From Holospora curviuscula (lineage in GTDB: Bacteria; Pseudomonadota; Alphaproteobacteria; Holosporales; Holosporaceae), in contig NZ_PHHC01000080.1 in assembly GCF_002930195.1 (NCBI RefSeq), positions 38,857 to 76,357 on the forward strand: a stretch of 37,501 nucleotides of DNA. The letters run 5' to 3'. Positions 3,741 through 29,113 of the stretch are shown in pieces. Below the pieces are notes generated by a model. That model was given only the letters and a program-made list of their open reading frames with translations, made no database searches and was not told the DNA's origin. How positions within the stretch are numbered: the stretch's first letter is position 1; each line of letters begins with the position of its first letter. Position numbers and translations under genes: made by a program.

Positions 3741-3915
3741 AGTGTGTCAATTTGTACTCATGGTAAAGCAAAGTAAGCCGAAGTGCAAGAGCTTATGGAG
3801 TGAACGCTTTTGTTCCCTTTCTCAGTTCAATCCTTTCTCACACACAACACAGTGAATTGTTTTGAAAAACATCAGCACTTATCGCTAACGGCATGCAACT
3901 AAAAAAAGTGTTTTG

Positions 3916-3999
3916 TGCCCAAGAGAAGACTCGAACTTCCACTAAAGTAACCTTTACTAGGATCTGAACCTAGCGCGTCTACCATTTCGCCACTTGGGC
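3916..3999 (-). tRNA. tRNA-Leu (anticodon CAG)
   Basis: A class II tRNA with a long variable arm. The acceptor stem GCCCAAG pairs with CTTGGGC. The anticodon stem CTAGG/CCTAG encloses the loop TTCAGAT, giving anticodon CAG. The T loop is GTTCGAGTC. The discriminator is A and no CCA is encoded (the next bases are CAA), so CCA must be added enzymatically. Confidence 0.95.
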
Positions 4000-6610: not shown

Positions 6611-7189
6611 GAAATTGCTCCTAAATCGTTGCGCTTGAAGGTGTTTTTATTATTTTATTTACTCACAAAAATACATAATATGAGACATAATACATAACAA
6701 TACATTTTTTTGAGAGTAAATCGTTTGTTTTCTAAAAAAGAGCGCTTCTTAATAAAACTAGAGAGAGTAAACTCTTTTAGTTTTCTGTCAGGTTCAACAA
6801 AATGCAGTAAAATAACGCAGATTAAGCGTCGCTCTTCTTAAGCTTTCTTTACTCAAGTATTGAACGTGAGGAAAAAGTCTTTTTTTTACTCTACTAAAAA
6901 GATTTTATTAAGTTTAAATTTTTTCTATTACTAATACTATCATAGAAACCCCTTCTTGAGAAGATGAAGCTTGTAATTTTAAGAATAAATTTATGCGATC
7001 TAAACACGCTTTTAAATTGTTGTTAAAAGGTTTAAAAATACTTTAAAAAGTCTTTAGTCCTAGGTACTAGTGTTTTCTTGTTTAATATAATAGGATTGGT
7101 AGCTAAACTTTTTTTGCTACACGGAAGGGGCATTGGGATACTGTCACATTATTGATGAATATAGTGTAAAAGCGAGGATAGGAGATGCC
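6611..7189. other. Gene-free spacer
   Basis: AT-rich sequence with no convincing reading frame, RNA gene or repeat on either strand. It separates the helicase gene from the helicase pseudogene and may contain the promoter of the former; I could not pick out a credible pair of boxes. Confidence 0.5.
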
Positions 7190-7539
7190 TCATCCTCTCT
7201 TTACACAACGCGCTGGAAGTGCTTTTTCAAAATCATCGTCTGTTTTTTTCTAAAGTGAATGAGCTAAAGCTGTATCTTAGCCGCGGCTTGTAACTTACTT
7301 AAAAAAAAGCTTCATCGTTATTAGAGATATGCATCAAACGAAGATAATCCAAAAGATTTTTAATCTCTTGTTTTGCTCAAGATGAACAAACTCTATACCG
7401 TAGTAAGGAATTTGTGCTGCTAAAAAGTCTGCTTCAAATAATTTTTCGTTCTTATTGGTGAGCGTTAAATTTTCTGTAGAAGCATAAGAGCGACCCCTTT
7501 TGATGAGTGTGAATAATCTGTTTAATTGCAAATCTACTT

Positions 7540-9159
7540 CTATATTTAAGTTTACTTTAGCATTATGAGTGATATAGCCAAATGAAGGAAGGAAAGAAAA
7601 GCGTGTGCAAGTGTATCATATCTGGGTGTAATGCGCCTGAAATAGGTTAATTTGTTGAACATTTGCTCGACTAGAGTGCGTTCTTTATAAAGAGCTGCGT
7701 CAAATTCTTTGGGGTTTTCGCATGAATTGTGGGGGGATGACGGCTTTGTTACTGCCAGCATAATAGACGATGTCATTGACATCGCGTAGCCTCTATCCGC
7801 TACTAGCGCTTTAAAGTCAAAATTTTCCATTAAATCAAGGGCTTTTGTATAATCAGAGCACTGACCAGGTGAGACAATGAATCTGATGGGGTTACTTAAA
7901 GTATCCCATGCAGCGTAAATCTTCGTGCTAAAATTGGCTCTTGTTCTTGGGGACCATTGACTCTATTTTTTTCTGGCGCTTGCGGCGTATTGATGCGCGC
8001 CAATCATTGTGGAATCAATCATGATCCATTGCGTATCAGTATCTGCTGCAAGGGTATTGAAGATCATTTGCCGAAAACTGGCTTTGGACCATCTTATAAA
8101 CCGTTTGTAAACACTCGATCATTTTCCGTAAGATTATGGCAATAGACCTCTTCGAAAACTGGATTGAATTTAAAGTTTGATGTAAACGCTCTATAGAAGG
8201 ATCTGTCATGAACGAGGAAACCATAAAAAATATAGAAGACGAAAAATTTCGTCGTTTAACAGGCGTTAAAAGATCACCTTTTGAAAAGATGCTTGATATT
8301 TTGAGAGAAGTTGAAGGCCTTAAGAAAGCGAAAGGCGGTGGAAAGAACACGCTTATTTTAGAGGATGGCCTTCTTATGGCTCTTGAGTACATCCGGGAAT
8401 ACCCGTACTTATTTCCATATAAGTCAAAGCGATGGGGTCAGTGAGCATACGGCTTATGATACGATTAAATGGATAGAGGGCACGCGTATCAAGCACTCTG
8501 ATTTTGCTTTGCCAGGTAAGAAAGCGCTTTTGAAACGTGATATGAATGATGAAGGGGGGTTAATAGATGCAACAGAACCCCCAATAGAGCGCCCAAAAAA
8601 GACAAAAGCATTACTGCTCAGGGAAAAAGAAAAGACACCCCTTAAACACTCAAGGTGTAGTAACTCAAGAAGGTATATGCACGGCTTTTTCAAAGGGCAA
8701 ACGTCATGATTTCAGGGGTTTTAAAGAATCAAAAACTCATATTCATCCTAAAATTAAGGGTATTACGGATACAGGATATCAAGGCTTGAAAACACTCCAT
8801 AGTAGAACTGACATTCCAAAAAAGAAGGGTAAGAAAAATCCTCTAAATGAAAACGTTATTGGGATACTCAAACGCTTCAAAATCATCTCTGATACATACA
8901 GAAACAGGCGTAACAGATTTAGGCTGAGATTCACGCTCATTGCAGGGGTCTATACCATGGAATTAGAACAATGAGAGTTTCCGAAGAGGTCTATTGCACG
9001 CTGCATCCCCCCCTTGCGGGCAATCCACATTGTTACCAGTACGTGCTGAATCCCCTTCTTTCCCAGGTAAACTTTCTTTTATTTCTTCCCATTTGTTGTC
9101 TCGTATCCCTTTCAATCTTATCTCCTTTTCTAACTCAACACCCTGATCTTAAAACATAG
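7540..9159 (-). mobile_element. IS5-family element (IS427-like), pseudogenised, with a nested IS
   Basis: The transposase remnant reads from 9150 down to 7552: IRDNKWEEIKESLPGKEGD, then (after the nested IS at 8141-8995) SSVYKRF.RWSKASFRQM, TDTQWIMIDSTMIGAHQ, IYAAWDTLSNPIRFIVSPGQ, ALVADRGYAM and FDAALYKERTLVEQMFNKL, ending with LAISLIMLK. These are the DDE and ADRGYD blocks of IS5-family (IS427-like) enzymes. At least one frameshift follows ASARKK, and two in-frame stops lie near SYGK. Imperfect terminal repeats are CTATATTTAAG on the left and, reverse-complemented, CTATGTTTTAAG on the right. A 90-bp fragment of the same end recurs at 22655. Confidence 0.8.
8141..8995 (+). mobile_element. IS5-family element (DDE_Tnp_4 type), copy 1, nested and frameshifted
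   Basis: Terminal repeats AATAGACCTCTTCGAAAACT (left) and its near reverse complement (right) bound an 855-bp element with GC at both flanks. The first frame (8208-8444) begins MNEETIKNIEDEKFRRLTG, a helix-turn-helix transposase N-terminus. The continuation FHISQSDGVSEHTAYD, FALPGKKALLKRD, IDATEPPIERPKK, HDFRGFKESK, TGYQGLKTLHS and IGILKRFKIISDTYRNRR lies in other frames. Lesions: an extra C after EYIREY (shared with copy 2), a 14-base-scale insertion near 8612 and a deletion near 8845. It is inserted in the transposase gene of the surrounding IS5 element. Confidence 0.88.
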
Positions 9160-9857
9160 TAGCGCCAGATAGAATGGCAGGAAAAGATCAACAATTTTCC
9201 TCAGAACAAAATAATTTGAGCTTCTGAAAATTTCTTTTTGGAAGCATAAAATCTGTTCGATACGAAGTCGCTTATTACCCACACACAGCTTTCTCCTCAT
9301 CTTCTACACAAAATGATCCCTCTGCGTAAACAATAAACAAATCTAGGAAAGCTCTAATGTGCTAATAGATTAGCATTTGTCTACCAGAATGTGTCTAAAT
9401 TTTTTTAATAAATGGTAACTTAACAAGAATAAGTTTTTTCCAATGAAGACTCTTTTCTAACATATCTTCCGAAACGATCTGTTGACAGAGAAGAATTTTT
9501 TTATAATATCTTCTTCATCTTGCGTATCCAGAAGAAAGAATTCCTCGCTGCATCCTATGGGCTTTTGAAAACTTTTTAAGATTACTAAGACTAATCTGTG
9601 AAAAATATTAATACAGTTTTGCTAAAAGATTTTGAATGTCGTGGAAAAACCAGTGGCCAAATATTACCACCGTAACGTGAAAGAGAGAAACATCCAAACC
9701 CGTACTAAGTATGGGTAGAATAACATCGTAACTTAATTTTTTTCCTGTTTTTGCTTAAACAGAAACATAACACTCGTCTTTTTTGCTGTAGAGAAAGTCT
9801 GTGTACTTTACTAAGAGTTTTACAGTTACAGGGCTATTTTTCAAAATCATCTCTTCG

Positions 9858-10550
9858 TTATAATCCTATACTCTTTATAGAATCTGATCGTGGGTGAGCT
9901 TGCGTTAATGTTTCCATTTCTTTCTCAATGTATTGGCTAATATGATCCTCCAATTCTCGTAGGTGCTCTGAAAATTTCTCATCTGCTCCAGTAATGAGTT
10001 TTAAGCTAATTTTTTGTCCCCGTTTTTGTGCTGAAAGCTGATACCCCAAACGAACCACCAAGTCGCAGGGAGTTACCGTATCTTCTGTGCCGTGCACAAT
10101 CAATCCTGGGTGAGGGCAAGGCGCTAAAAAATCAAAGGGATAAAGATTAGGACGCAAAGAAACTCCCACAAATCGTTCACATTCTGGACGACGCATTAAG
10201 ATCTGCATGCTGATCCAGGCACCAAAGGAATATCCTGACACCCAGTAACGTGCTTTAGGGGGGTAACGATCGGCAAGCCAGTTTAGACAAGCTTCTGCAT
10301 CAGAAATTTCTCCTTCTCCATTGCTGAAAGTGCCGTCAGATTTACCTGAACCTCTATAATTAAATCGTAAGACATCAAATCCACAGCGCACAAAGCTTCG
10401 ATGAATAGTAAACATAACACTATGATCTAAAAGTCCTTCCCATTTAGGATGGGGGGAGGCTAATAAAACCACCTGGGAAGATTTTTTATTAGTGTAATAA
10501 ATCGCTTCTATTTTGCCTTGAGGGCCTGGAATCATTAAGGGTGAAGACAT
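9858..10550 (-). CDS. Alpha/beta hydrolase (COG2945-like)
   Basis: A 230-residue cytoplasmic alpha/beta-hydrolase fold protein with no signal peptide. It opens with an IPGPQGKIEAIYY strand pair and the oxyanion-region ASPHPKWEG (31-39). Next come RFNYRGSGKSDGTF (62-75), the nucleophile elbow GYSFGAW (Ser108), the acid loop VHGTEDTVTP (Asp157) and a likely catalytic His196 in FSEHLREL. The family is widespread in proteobacteria but its substrate is unknown. The ATG at 10550 has only a weak, distant AAGGA. It sits alone, divergent from maeB and abutting the helicase pseudogene. Confidence 0.85.
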   Translation of the reverse strand: MSSPLMIPGPQGKIEAIYYTNKKSSQVVLLASPHPKWEGLLDHSVMFTIHRSFVRCGFDVLRFNYRGSGKSDGTFSNGEGEISDAEACLNWLADRYPPKARYWVSGYSFGAWISMQILMRRPECERFVGVSLRPNLYPFDFLAPCPHPGLIVHGTEDTVTPCDLVVRLGYQLSAQKRGQKISLKLITGADEKFSEHLRELEDHISQYIEKEMETLTQAHPRSDSIKSIGL

Positions 10551-10779: not shown

Positions 10780-12627
10780 GTGGTATTTGAAACACCTTCT
10801 TTAAGGTATCATGCCTACCCCAAGGCAGGAAAATGGGAAATGTTGCCTTCTAAACCTTTGGAAGGATGGGAGGATTTAGCTCTTGCCTACAATCCCGGCG
10901 TTGCTTTTGCCTGCGAAGCCATCGTCTCTTGTCAGCATAACGCCTACGACTTAACCAATAAAGGGCATCTTGTGGCGGTCATTACTAATGGAACCGCTGT
11001 ATTGGGAATGGGAGATATTGGTCCCTTAGCCGCTAAACCTGTGATGGAAGGAAAATCTGTCTTGATTAAATATTTTTCCGGTCTCGACAGTATTGATTTA
11101 GAGTTGGCAGAATCCGATCCTTATAAACTCATTGAGCACATTGTAGCCCTGGCACCTTCCTTTGGTGCGATTAATTTGGAAGACATTAAAGCTCCAGAGT
11201 GTTTCATCGTAGAGCAAGCGTTGATAGAACGTCTCACAATTCCTGTGTTTCACGATGATCAACATGGCACTGCTATTGTCGTGTGTGCTGCTATATTAAA
11301 TGGGTTACATTTAAAACAGCTTCCTATTGAGGAAGCTGTAGTGGTGGTGAATGGTGCCGGCGCTGGAGCATTAGCTTCCTTAGAACTGTTGCGTAAATTT
11401 GGATTAAAGCAAGAAAACATATGGTTGTGTGATCAAAAAGGACTTGTGCACACTGAGCGAGCCCATGTTACTCCCCATAAAGCGCCTTACGCACAAAAAT
11501 CTCTCAAACGCACTTTGGGACAGGTCCTGGAAGGAGCTGATGTTTTTCTAGGACTCTCAAGAGGTCGTCTTCTGACAGGGGACATGATTTCTCCCATGAA
11601 TCCTCGTCCGTTAATTTTTGCTTTGGCCAATCCTGTTCCTGAGATTCTTCCCGAAGAAGTGTACGCAGTACATCCTGATGCTTTGGTTGGTACGGGAAGA
11701 TCAGATTATCCTAACCAAATCAACAATATATTGTGCTTTCCTTATATGTTTAAAGGTGCGCTGGCGGTACAGGCTTCTTGTATTGTAGAAGAAATGAAGC
11801 GGGCTTGCGTTGAAGAATTAAAAACTATTGCCCAAGAAGGCGAGTGGGGAGCTTGCGGTGCGTATAAAGGCGCATTGCATCCTTTTGGTCCAGATTATTT
11901 TATTCCAAAAGCTTTCGATCCTCGATTAAGAGCCCGACTGCCTCTTGTGATAGCAGAGGCTGCCATAAAAGCGGGGGTTGCGCGTAAGGGAGTAGATCAT
12001 CTGCGCGATCTGAAAGTTCAGCTGGTCTCCCAAGCTTATGAAGCGTATCCAACTTTTGGTCGTTTATGTGTTGCGCAAAGTATTGGAAACTTACCCCTTT
12101 TAGCTCCCCCGTTAATTTTCAGCTATGCTTTAGAGGCTAAAGATCAGTGGAATGTTTTTAAAAGTGCGTTATTGGCACTGGAGCGTCATAATTTTTGTAC
12201 TGCTCACGTAATTCATCCAGAAGGGAGTCCTCATTCATTAGAGTCCTGTTTTTCTGGCACTCCTTTGCTCTCTAAAGCGTTGCGTATTCATGCGTGCAAT
12301 TTGCCAACTTCAGATAAAAAAATGATGTTACGCAATGAAGTGAAGAACGGACACAACAGCGTATTTCTTTTAGGGCAGCGTGATGAACATACTGAAGACA
12401 GTGTAGTCCGCATTATGAAAGGCGTCTCTACCCTGTATCAAACTGTGTATTCAATAAAAGAAAAAAATCCTTTAACCATAAGCTGGCTGGCTCCTTCAAC
12501 GTTAACCCTCCCCCGAAGCGTTTATATTCAAGGAGACACAGTGTACATTCAAACGTATATATCTATTAGAGATTTCTTAGAGGTAAGCGCTTTGGTGACG
12601 GGATGCGCTTATGAACATGGGTTCTAA
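10780..12627 (+). CDS. maeB: NADP-dependent malic enzyme, MaeB type, with reduced PTA-like domain
   Basis: Converts malate to pyruvate, CO2 and NAD(P)H in the cytoplasm, using a divalent metal. The GTG start at 10780 has AGGAG eight bases upstream. The malic-enzyme part (about 1-420) is well kept: LALAYNPGVAFAC with the catalytic Tyr37, NGTAVLGMGDIGPLA, VMEGKSVLIKYF with Lys97, INLEDIKAPECF, FHDDQHGTAI (157-166), NGAGAGA for the dinucleotide and TGRSDYPNQINN (305-316). MaeB enzymes normally carry a phosphotransacetylase-like domain of about 330 residues; here only about 190 residues follow and none of its usual motifs is obvious. Total length is 615 against about 760. The 3' end overlaps mgtE by 17 bases. 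Confidence 0.94.
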   Translation: MVFETPSLRYHAYPKAGKWEMLPSKPLEGWEDLALAYNPGVAFACEAIVSCQHNAYDLTNKGHLVAVITNGTAVLGMGDIGPLAAKPVMEGKSVLIKYFSGLDSIDLELAESDPYKLIEHIVALAPSFGAINLEDIKAPECFIVEQALIERLTIPVFHDDQHGTAIVVCAAILNGLHLKQLPIEEAVVVVNGAGAGALASLELLRKFGLKQENIWLCDQKGLVHTERAHVTPHKAPYAQKSLKRTLGQVLEGADVFLGLSRGRLLTGDMISPMNPRPLIFALANPVPEILPEEVYAVHPDALVGTGRSDYPNQINNILCFPYMFKGALAVQASCIVEEMKRACVEELKTIAQEGEWGACGAYKGALHPFGPDYFIPKAFDPRLRARLPLVIAEAAIKAGVARKGVDHLRDLKVQLVSQAYEAYPTFGRLCVAQSIGNLPLLAPPLIFSYALEAKDQWNVFKSALLALERHNFCTAHVIHPEGSPHSLESCFSGTPLLSKALRIHACNLPTSDKKMMLRNEVKNGHNSVFLLGQRDEHTEDSVVRIMKGVSTLYQTVYSIKEKNPLTISWLAPSTLTLPRSVYIQGDTVYIQTYISIRDFLEVSALVTGCAYEHGF

Positions 12628-23651: not shown

Positions 23652-24494
23652 ATGTACCCCAAAATATTTTTTATTACTGGGCTATCAGGTTCGGGAAAAA
23701 CGATGGCTTTAAAGCTTTTGGAAGACTTAGGCTGTGAGGTTGTAGATAATATTCCTATCGCTTTGTGTGCTGATTTAATTTCAGAAAAAGTAACACAACA
23801 CCCTCTAGGTATAGGCCTTGATCTTCGTACGCGAGATTTTAGCACAGAAAAATTTCATCACTGTGTAGAAATGATTCGAAAAAAAAATATTGTAAGGGTA
23901 GTGTTTTTGAATGCTAGCACACAAGTTTTGTGTGCACGATATCGAGAAACGCGTCGAGGCCATCCTCTTGGAAATGCGGCGTACATTGAGGGGTTGATTG
24001 AAAGGGAAAAAAAACTTTTAGATTCTGTGCAGAATCGAGCAGATGTTGTTTTTGATACTTCGACTTTTTCTCCACCTGAAATGCGTAGTAAACTTCAGCA
24101 GCTTCTTGAGATACCCTCTCTTCAATTATGGGTGTACTTATTATCTTTTTCTTTTCGTAGAGGCATTCCTTTACAAAGCGATTTTGTATTTGATATGCGG
24201 TTTTTACCTAACCCGCATTACAATCATGACATGCGAACCCTTACAGGGGAGCACGGGTATATTCAATCCTATTTAATGCAGGATTCAAAATTTAATTCTT
24301 TTTTTGAACATGTAACTTACTTATTTTCTTCTGTAATCTTACCTTCGTATACTCAAGATCGGCGCTTGAATTCTACCCTGAGTTTTGGATGTACTGGAGG
24401 AAGACACCGCTCTGTTGGTACAGCAGAATTGGTGGCAAAATTTTTAAAAGAAACAAACAATATGAATGTATTGGTGTACCACAGAGATCTTTAA
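23652..24494 (+). CDS. rapZ: RapZ/YvcJ-family nucleotide-binding RNA adaptor
   Basis: In enterobacteria RapZ senses glucosamine-6-phosphate and directs RNase E to small RNAs that control GlmS. Other members (YvcJ) are GTP/ATP-binding proteins of less certain role. The 280 residues show a Walker A GLSGSGKT (10-17), DNIP (about 32-35), a DLRTRDF segment, FLNAS...RYRETRRGHPL (105-128) and DTSTFSPPEMR. The C-terminal domain has FDMRFLPNPHY and the signature FGCTGGRHRSV (245-255). The ATG at 23652 lies 18 bases after the tRNA and has no Shine-Dalgarno. The usual alphaproteobacterial PTS partners (HPr kinase, EIIA, HPr) are not next to it. Confidence 0.94.
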   Translation: MYPKIFFITGLSGSGKTMALKLLEDLGCEVVDNIPIALCADLISEKVTQHPLGIGLDLRTRDFSTEKFHHCVEMIRKKNIVRVVFLNASTQVLCARYRETRRGHPLGNAAYIEGLIEREKKLLDSVQNRADVVFDTSTFSPPEMRSKLQQLLEIPSLQLWVYLLSFSFRRGIPLQSDFVFDMRFLPNPHYNHDMRTLTGEHGYIQSYLMQDSKFNSFFEHVTYLFSSVILPSYTQDRRLNSTLSFGCTGGRHRSVGTAELVAKFLKETNNMNVLVYHRDL

Positions 24495-27953: not shown

Positions 27954-28249
27954 TTAAAAGTCAATAGGGTGTTTACTGATTGTATTATAATATGTTCCGC
28001 TTCATGGGGGTAGTGTCTACATATAATTAAAAAATTTTTTTAATTATATTTTTTTTGTTTAATACAAGTTATTTTATTTTTGATTATTATTATAAAATTA
28101 TAAAAAATAGACTTAAATATGGGATTTAAAAAATGTTGTAAAAAAACATTGTTAAGAGTTTATTGCTAAAAAATTACGATTTTTTCTGGTTATTTTTTAA
28201 TTTTTTTGACAAAATACTAATGTTAATTAAAAATAATAGGACATTGAAA
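27954..28249. other. AT-rich leader of the beta-barrel gene
   Basis: Extremely AT-rich. TTGACA occurs at 28206-28211, but the only -10-like sequence (AATAAT, 28232-28237) is 20 bases away, so it is a poor promoter candidate. No frame or RNA gene is seen. Confidence 0.4.
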
Positions 28250-29113
28250 GTGCATAAAAATTTTAAATTAGTATATTTTTTGTTTCTTGCGACAACTTCG
28301 CTTCAAGCAGGAGAAGAAATAGAAGGAAGTTCTTCTTTCCAGTCTGGGATTGGTATCACCATGGGATTGGGAGTAGCAAATTCTTCCACAAGTGCAAAAG
28401 ATGGCACCGCCTCTAATAACCTAAAATTATCTGGATACTATTATAGGCAAAACCCACAGGCACCGTTTCGGAGAATTGGGAATCCCAATGAATTGATAGA
28501 CTTTTCCAATGCGTTAAAGGTAAAAAACAAGTCTGGGGTTGCTTGGACTATGGGTGCGCTCTTTCAAAAGAGAATGGGGTTTTACACTATGGGCTTGCGG
28601 TGGCTTTTTGGATCTTTGGCAAATTCTTCCCGTATAGCATACTCGAGCGGTTTTTGGCATTACAAAAATAATCCTGATATAAACAATGCCTATAATGGTT
28701 CTGAATCAAGCATTTCTGAAAATAATATCACAGCTTTTCAGTTGAAGAACAAATGGTTTACTTCCTTTATTTTTGAATTTGGCTACATTATTGGAAATCG
28801 GATTCAACTGTTTGCCGGACCCGGAGTATCTTTTCAGCGTCAAAAATTAGCATCCATTAATTCTTCTGGGAAATCTTCTGGTGGCATCTCCAAAACGGTG
28901 TCGGCTCCCATGGTGGCGCTTGGTGCTCGGTACGCATTAACTCAGCGTATGTCTTTAGGTCTTGAGTATCAGCGTCAATGGATGAGTAAAAAAACTTGGC
29001 ACCAAATTTCCAAAATTGTTCCTGAAAAAACCACTGCTGTTGGTGCGCCCACCTTTAAGACGACCAATAATGTTTTCTTGATGACGCTAACCTATATGTT
29101 TGGCGCTAAATAA
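28250..29113 (+). CDS. Predicted outer-membrane beta-barrel protein
   Basis: I recognise the type, not the family. The start is GTG at 28250 with AGGA eight bases upstream. It gives a clean signal peptide, MHKNFKLVYFLFLATTSLQA, cut before GEEIEG. An upstream in-frame ATG at 28163 would add 29 residues before the signal and is unlikely. The mature protein (about 267 aa) has alternating strands rich in Gly, Ser and aromatics (FQSGIGITMGLGVANSS, SGVAWTMGALFQKRMGFYTM, FIFEFGYIIGNRIQLFAGPG, MVALGARYALTQRMSLGLEY). It ends in NVFLMTLTYMFGAK, a typical barrel-closing strand. It could be a surface antigen or porin-like protein. It stands alone after lptE. Confidence 0.8.
   Translation: MHKNFKLVYFLFLATTSLQAGEEIEGSSSFQSGIGITMGLGVANSSTSAKDGTASNNLKLSGYYYRQNPQAPFRRIGNPNELIDFSNALKVKNKSGVAWTMGALFQKRMGFYTMGLRWLFGSLANSSRIAYSSGFWHYKNNPDINNAYNGSESSISENNITAFQLKNKWFTSFIFEFGYIIGNRIQLFAGPGVSFQRQKLASINSSGKSSGGISKTVSAPMVALGARYALTQRMSLGLEYQRQWMSKKTWHQISKIVPEKTTAVGAPTFKTTNNVFLMTLTYMFGAK

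Follow-up and report, generated by a model that had tools for sequence, protein, structure and literature searches.

Two intact genes of Holospora curviuscula are separated by 3.2 kb that hold no long open frame: what occupies this gap? The window, by which we mean the whole stretch of 37,501 nucleotides analysed here, is part of contig C86 of a draft genome (G000) of 1.7 Mb, assembled into 152 contigs. On its minus strand, an alpha/beta hydrolase gene is followed by this gap and then by an intact helicase gene (Table 1). The original prediction, made by reading the sequence alone, saw in the gap the ghost of a second UvrD-like helicase, left over from a tandem pair that had lost one member. 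We conclude with high confidence that the ghost is a pseudogene of H2, a copy of UvrD made by tandem duplication, which became truncated, evolved fast and was lost through insertion sequences (IS), frameshifts and AT drift.

Table 1. Features of the helicase locus, in window coordinates.
Feature	Position	Strand	State
UvrD/PcrA-type SF1A helicase, 722 aa	4442..6610	(-)	intact; C-terminal Tudor-like region
Ghost H2, 3' part	6640..7543	(-)	about H2 residues 331-644, including the H2-only C-terminal tail; many frameshifts and stops
IS A, putative DDE transposase remnant	7544..9156	(-)	degraded; bounds from ~20 partial copies in the same genome
IS B, within IS A	8140..8997	(+)	degraded; many genome copies, up to 98% identical
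Ghost H2, 5' part	9157..9840	(-)	about H2 residues 20-300; internal deletions, frameshifted
Alpha/beta hydrolase	9858..10550	(-)	intact; next gene upstream of the ghost; G001 counterpart 85% identical, at the same place

The sequence blocks on which the prediction was based are all present, in order and in the orientation of the intact helicase. Motif III of the ghost reads FCVEDEEKAVCG on the minus strand (cf. FCVGDEDQSIYG in the intact helicase), followed by FSEAQII (cf. FPGAQII), EENC*SFPAILSGAT (cf. EENYRSSPAILSAAS) and RGRSYAST...IPYYGIEFVH (cf. KGRPYASM...IPYQVVGSIN). A tblastn search of the gap with the intact neighbour recovered colinear pieces on the same strand, namely residues 110-313 at 9612-9158, 346-482 at 7547-7152 and 533-593 at 7018-6839, with E-values from 1e-6 to 4e-4 and a reading frame that changes between the pieces. 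We aligned proteins to the gap by a frameshift-tolerant protein-to-DNA alignment with the IS interval omitted, and compared the scores with those of shuffles; in later tests, the two flanking blocks were each treated on their own. The neighbouring UvrD scored 248 (shuffles 53 +/- 7; Z 26.5), and the UvrDs of the genus as queries gave Z of 23-28. The highest score, 312 (shuffles 61 +/- 8; Z 30.9), was obtained with H2, the intact second helicase of a congener (G001) described below. Two unrelated proteins stayed at chance level in the same alignment (Z about 1). Homology beyond chance thus covers both helicase domains, and both the alignments (Z 23-31 for UvrD-type queries vs 1.7 for the AddA/RecB-like SF1 helicase of the same genome) and the tree place the ghost nearer to UvrD/PcrA than to AddA/RecB.

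At the DNA level, alignment to the intact H2 gene of G001 gave Z of 30.4 for the 3' block and 21.0 for the 5' block. In H2 nucleotide coordinates (h2nt), positions 1007-1999 match 7541-6618 of the window (E 2e-30), 656-911 match 9406-9152 (E 9e-16) and 107-482 match 9787-9437 (E 3e-12). The ghost therefore extends differently from the interval 7190-9835 first proposed. The upper end stood: at ~9840 the ghost abuts the hydrolase gene, as H2 does in G001, and its first ~20 codons would lie there as judged from synteny with G001. The lower end did not, as the ghost runs past 7190 to ~6640, so that only ~30 bp, and not 0.6 kb, separate it from the start of the intact helicase. Neither did the middle, where 7544-9156 are nested IS, amounting to 1.6 of the proposed 2.6 kb. 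The 3' block carries ~15 frameshifts and 6 stops over 291 residues aligned with H2, and both blocks, aligned separately, roughly 21 frameshifts and 8 stops; the remains have a G+C content of 31-33%. Stops, frameshifts, a 1.6 kb nested IS and an intact orthologue in G001 together mark a pseudogene. In a draft assembly, a sequencing error could mimic one frameshift, but not dozens of them plus a nested IS.

A search of the genome with 7520-9170 returned ~60 matches, which fall into two sets, one covering 7544-8142 together with ~8995-9156 (IS A) and the other 8140-8997 (IS B). IS B therefore sits in IS A, and IS A in the helicase, where ~0.1 kb of the H2 sequence is absent (h2nt 911-1007). IS A, which reads as IS5-like, shows a weak match to Pfam DDE_Tnp_1 at 7555-7830 (E 1e-3). 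The terminal inverted repeats of IS B are near-perfect, differing at one position (GCAATAGACCTCTTCG(A/G)AAACT), and its fragments found no match in Pfam. The copies of IS A elsewhere in the genome are mostly 71-87% identical, as compared with up to 98% for those of IS B, which suggests that IS B was active more recently. Dozens of fragments of these two degraded IS families are scattered over the draft genome.

The tandem arrangement is preserved in G001, where the hydrolase gene is followed by an open frame of 647 residues (H2) and then by UvrD, and where the hydrolase is flanked on its other side by malic enzyme and MgtE, as in the window. H2 is 58-60% identical to the UvrDs of the genus. 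The intact UvrD of the window is 84% identical to that of G001 and 82% to that of another congener. A more advanced wreck is found in G002: the 3' end of H2 matches the 490 bp that lie immediately upstream of UvrD (E 7e-16, Z 14.3), and only the decayed 3' third of the gene is left. The hydrolase gene of G002 lies on a different contig, next to a transposase fragment of the ISAzo13 type. The 5' part of H2 was therefore probably removed by a rearrangement; no H2 remnants were found in the first half of the UvrD upstream flank, downstream of UvrD or beside the relocated hydrolase. The region upstream of UvrD in G004 contained no H2 remnant, and each of the other sampled genomes of the order (7/7) has one UvrD-type copy. 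No intact H2 was found elsewhere in G000. When genome contigs were scanned with H2, the matches were ordinary bacterial UvrDs, the best at 46% identity, and among the records covered no H2 turned up outside the genus; a plasmid search returned only generic UvrD relatives below 60% identity. A literature search found nothing specific on the locus or the paralogue. The predicted loss of one member of a tandem pair is thus supported by the congeners, and a heavily frameshifted pseudogene had been correctly spotted by reading the sequence alone.

The malic enzyme of the window (10780-12627) matches the 764-residue NADP-malic enzyme model over its residues 7-420 only; the remaining ~195 residues stand where a longer C-terminal part is usual. 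Its identity to the congeners is 66%, vs 77-85% for its neighbours, and G004 yielded no match. A RapZ-like gene is located near lpxK and UvrD in G001 (L033, 5193-6035), whereas in the window it lies at 23652-24494, with ~17 kb between it and UvrD, which indicates extensive local rearrangement between congeners. Downstream of UvrD, the window has tRNA-Leu (3915-3999), DprA and TopA instead of lpxK. The DNA topoisomerase I of G002 (L152, G002:C18:58159-60738) aligns with one TGA and one TAG inside the match; these may be a genuine lesion, an error of the assembly or the edge of a frame. An open frame of 316 residues at 28163-29113 of the window had no NCBIfam match at E 1e-3.

In the UvrD tree, H2 falls inside the clade of the genus (100/100), on a branch of 1.02 compared with 0.06-0.11 for the UvrDs of the genus. 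H2 and UvrD lie adjacent on the same strand as paralogues within one clade, as tandem duplicates do. A tree including the ghost, restricted to the columns whose alignment is the same with each of the four references, groups the ghost with H2 (100/97). Long-branch attraction between the two could inflate this support; however, the tail shared with H2 alone and the identical position are evidence independent of the tree. The alternative of a recent, independent duplicate of the genome's own UvrD, not orthologous to H2 of G001, is very unlikely, even though that UvrD aligns strongly with the ghost (Z 26.5) and equals H2 over short stretches of the ghost DNA. The ghost scores better with H2, aligns through the private C-terminal tail of H2 that is absent from UvrD, and lies between the same neighbours as H2; a clade of the ghost with the genome's own UvrD was rejected (p-AU 0.0146). 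Diagnostic residues in the ghost lean only slightly towards H2, being H2-like at 19 positions, UvrD-like at 12 and neither at 31.

Another SF1 helicase (Rep, AddA/RecB, or one from a phage or plasmid) might have arrived with the IS elements, as mobile DNA abounds at the locus and plasmids often carry UvrD-like helicases. We consider this origin highly improbable: the AddA/RecB-like helicase of the genome aligned with the ghost at chance (score 66, Z 1.7), the intact orthologue H2 belongs to the genus' own UvrD clade, and the IS units are multicopy and without helicase cargo. Although AT-rich, degraded, low-complexity DNA can produce spurious short matches, chance similarity is next to impossible given that none of 60 shuffles scored above 83 compared with the observed 312, that the reverse complement of the ghost remained at shuffle level, and that an intact orthologue occupies the same position in G001.

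What kind of protein was lost as a pseudogene of H2 can be read from the intact copy in G001. It matches Pfam UvrD-helicase and UvrD_C and keeps motifs I (GAGTGKT), II (DEYQD), III (GDEDQSIYGWRGA), IV (ENYRSS), V (AKGLEF) and VI (ALTRA), whereas motif Ia is altered (TFTRFAAQGV vs TFTNRAAQEM). The Tudor domain is absent, and the ghost has the same short private tail, which makes H2 a truncated paralogue. PcrA/UvrD bind RNA polymerase through the Tudor C-terminus (PMC5397179, PMC7585439). H2 of G001 has kept its catalytic motifs, and its frame is open although its amino-acid branch is ~10x longer than that of UvrD. It contains no stops, vs ~29 expected without selection when the same nucleotide differences are placed at random. 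The dN is 0.30 between H2 and UvrD and 0.08-0.11 between UvrDs; as dS by NG86 is saturated (2-3), we used only the contrast in dN and the absence of stops. Judging from these sequence features, H2 is likeliest a functional helicase under weaker constraint, which would act uncoupled from transcription, overlap in part with UvrD and hence be expendable. It is doubtful, with perhaps a minor chance, that H2 was no mere spare, and that a Tudor-less, RNA polymerase-uncoupled paralogue gained its own role in the genus and later became dispensable in two lineages. The intact Tudor-less UvrD paralogue of G001 is open to testing.

We propose that a tandem duplication of UvrD on the stem of the genus, among intracellular-type Alphaproteobacteria in the neighbourhood of Finniella and Paracaedibacter, gave rise to H2, which shed its C-terminal Tudor domain before the sampled species split and evolved much faster (~10x) than UvrD with its frame still open. 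In G000, the function of H2 was then lost, with a ~1.6 kb nested IS pair in the middle of the gene, frameshifts, stops, deletions and AT drift. Either the IS or a frameshift may have come first, and redundancy with UvrD would be the reason why the loss was tolerated. The ancestral state of the genus is reconstructed from the one intact H2 available and two wrecks. The four-protein tree groups G001 with G002 at moderate support (92/88), so G000 and G002 probably, though not certainly, lost H2 independently. Within one genus, the locus records how a duplicated DNA-repair helicase was born and lost, in three stages: intact, IS-broken and nearly erased.

Among known systems, H2 and the ghost derive from UvrD/PcrA, from which H2 differs by the missing Tudor domain and the changed motif Ia, and the copy in the window is dead. 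The intact UvrD of the window itself matches the profiles of PcrA (TIGR01073, E 1e-191) and DNA helicase II (NF008743, E 1e-184), both under the equivalog cut-offs; with the PcrA model, it reaches 638.8 bits and H2 516.8, both below the NCBIfam cut-off of 911.2, which is uninformative for this clade as the intact UvrD also falls below it. Rep, too, is not known to carry the Tudor C-terminus of PcrA/UvrD. The likeness of H2 to Rep is a convergent truncation, because the PcrA (517 bits) and UvrD (479-491) profile models score higher with H2 than that of Rep (457) and H2 groups with the UvrDs of the genus. The decay of the ghost follows IS-mediated pseudogenisation as known from host-restricted bacteria, with the same multicopy degraded ISs, loss of a redundant gene and AT drift. 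It is a clear case of ordinary reductive evolution and genome erosion with no new mechanism, differing from the known process not in kind but in presenting three stages of decay in three congeners.
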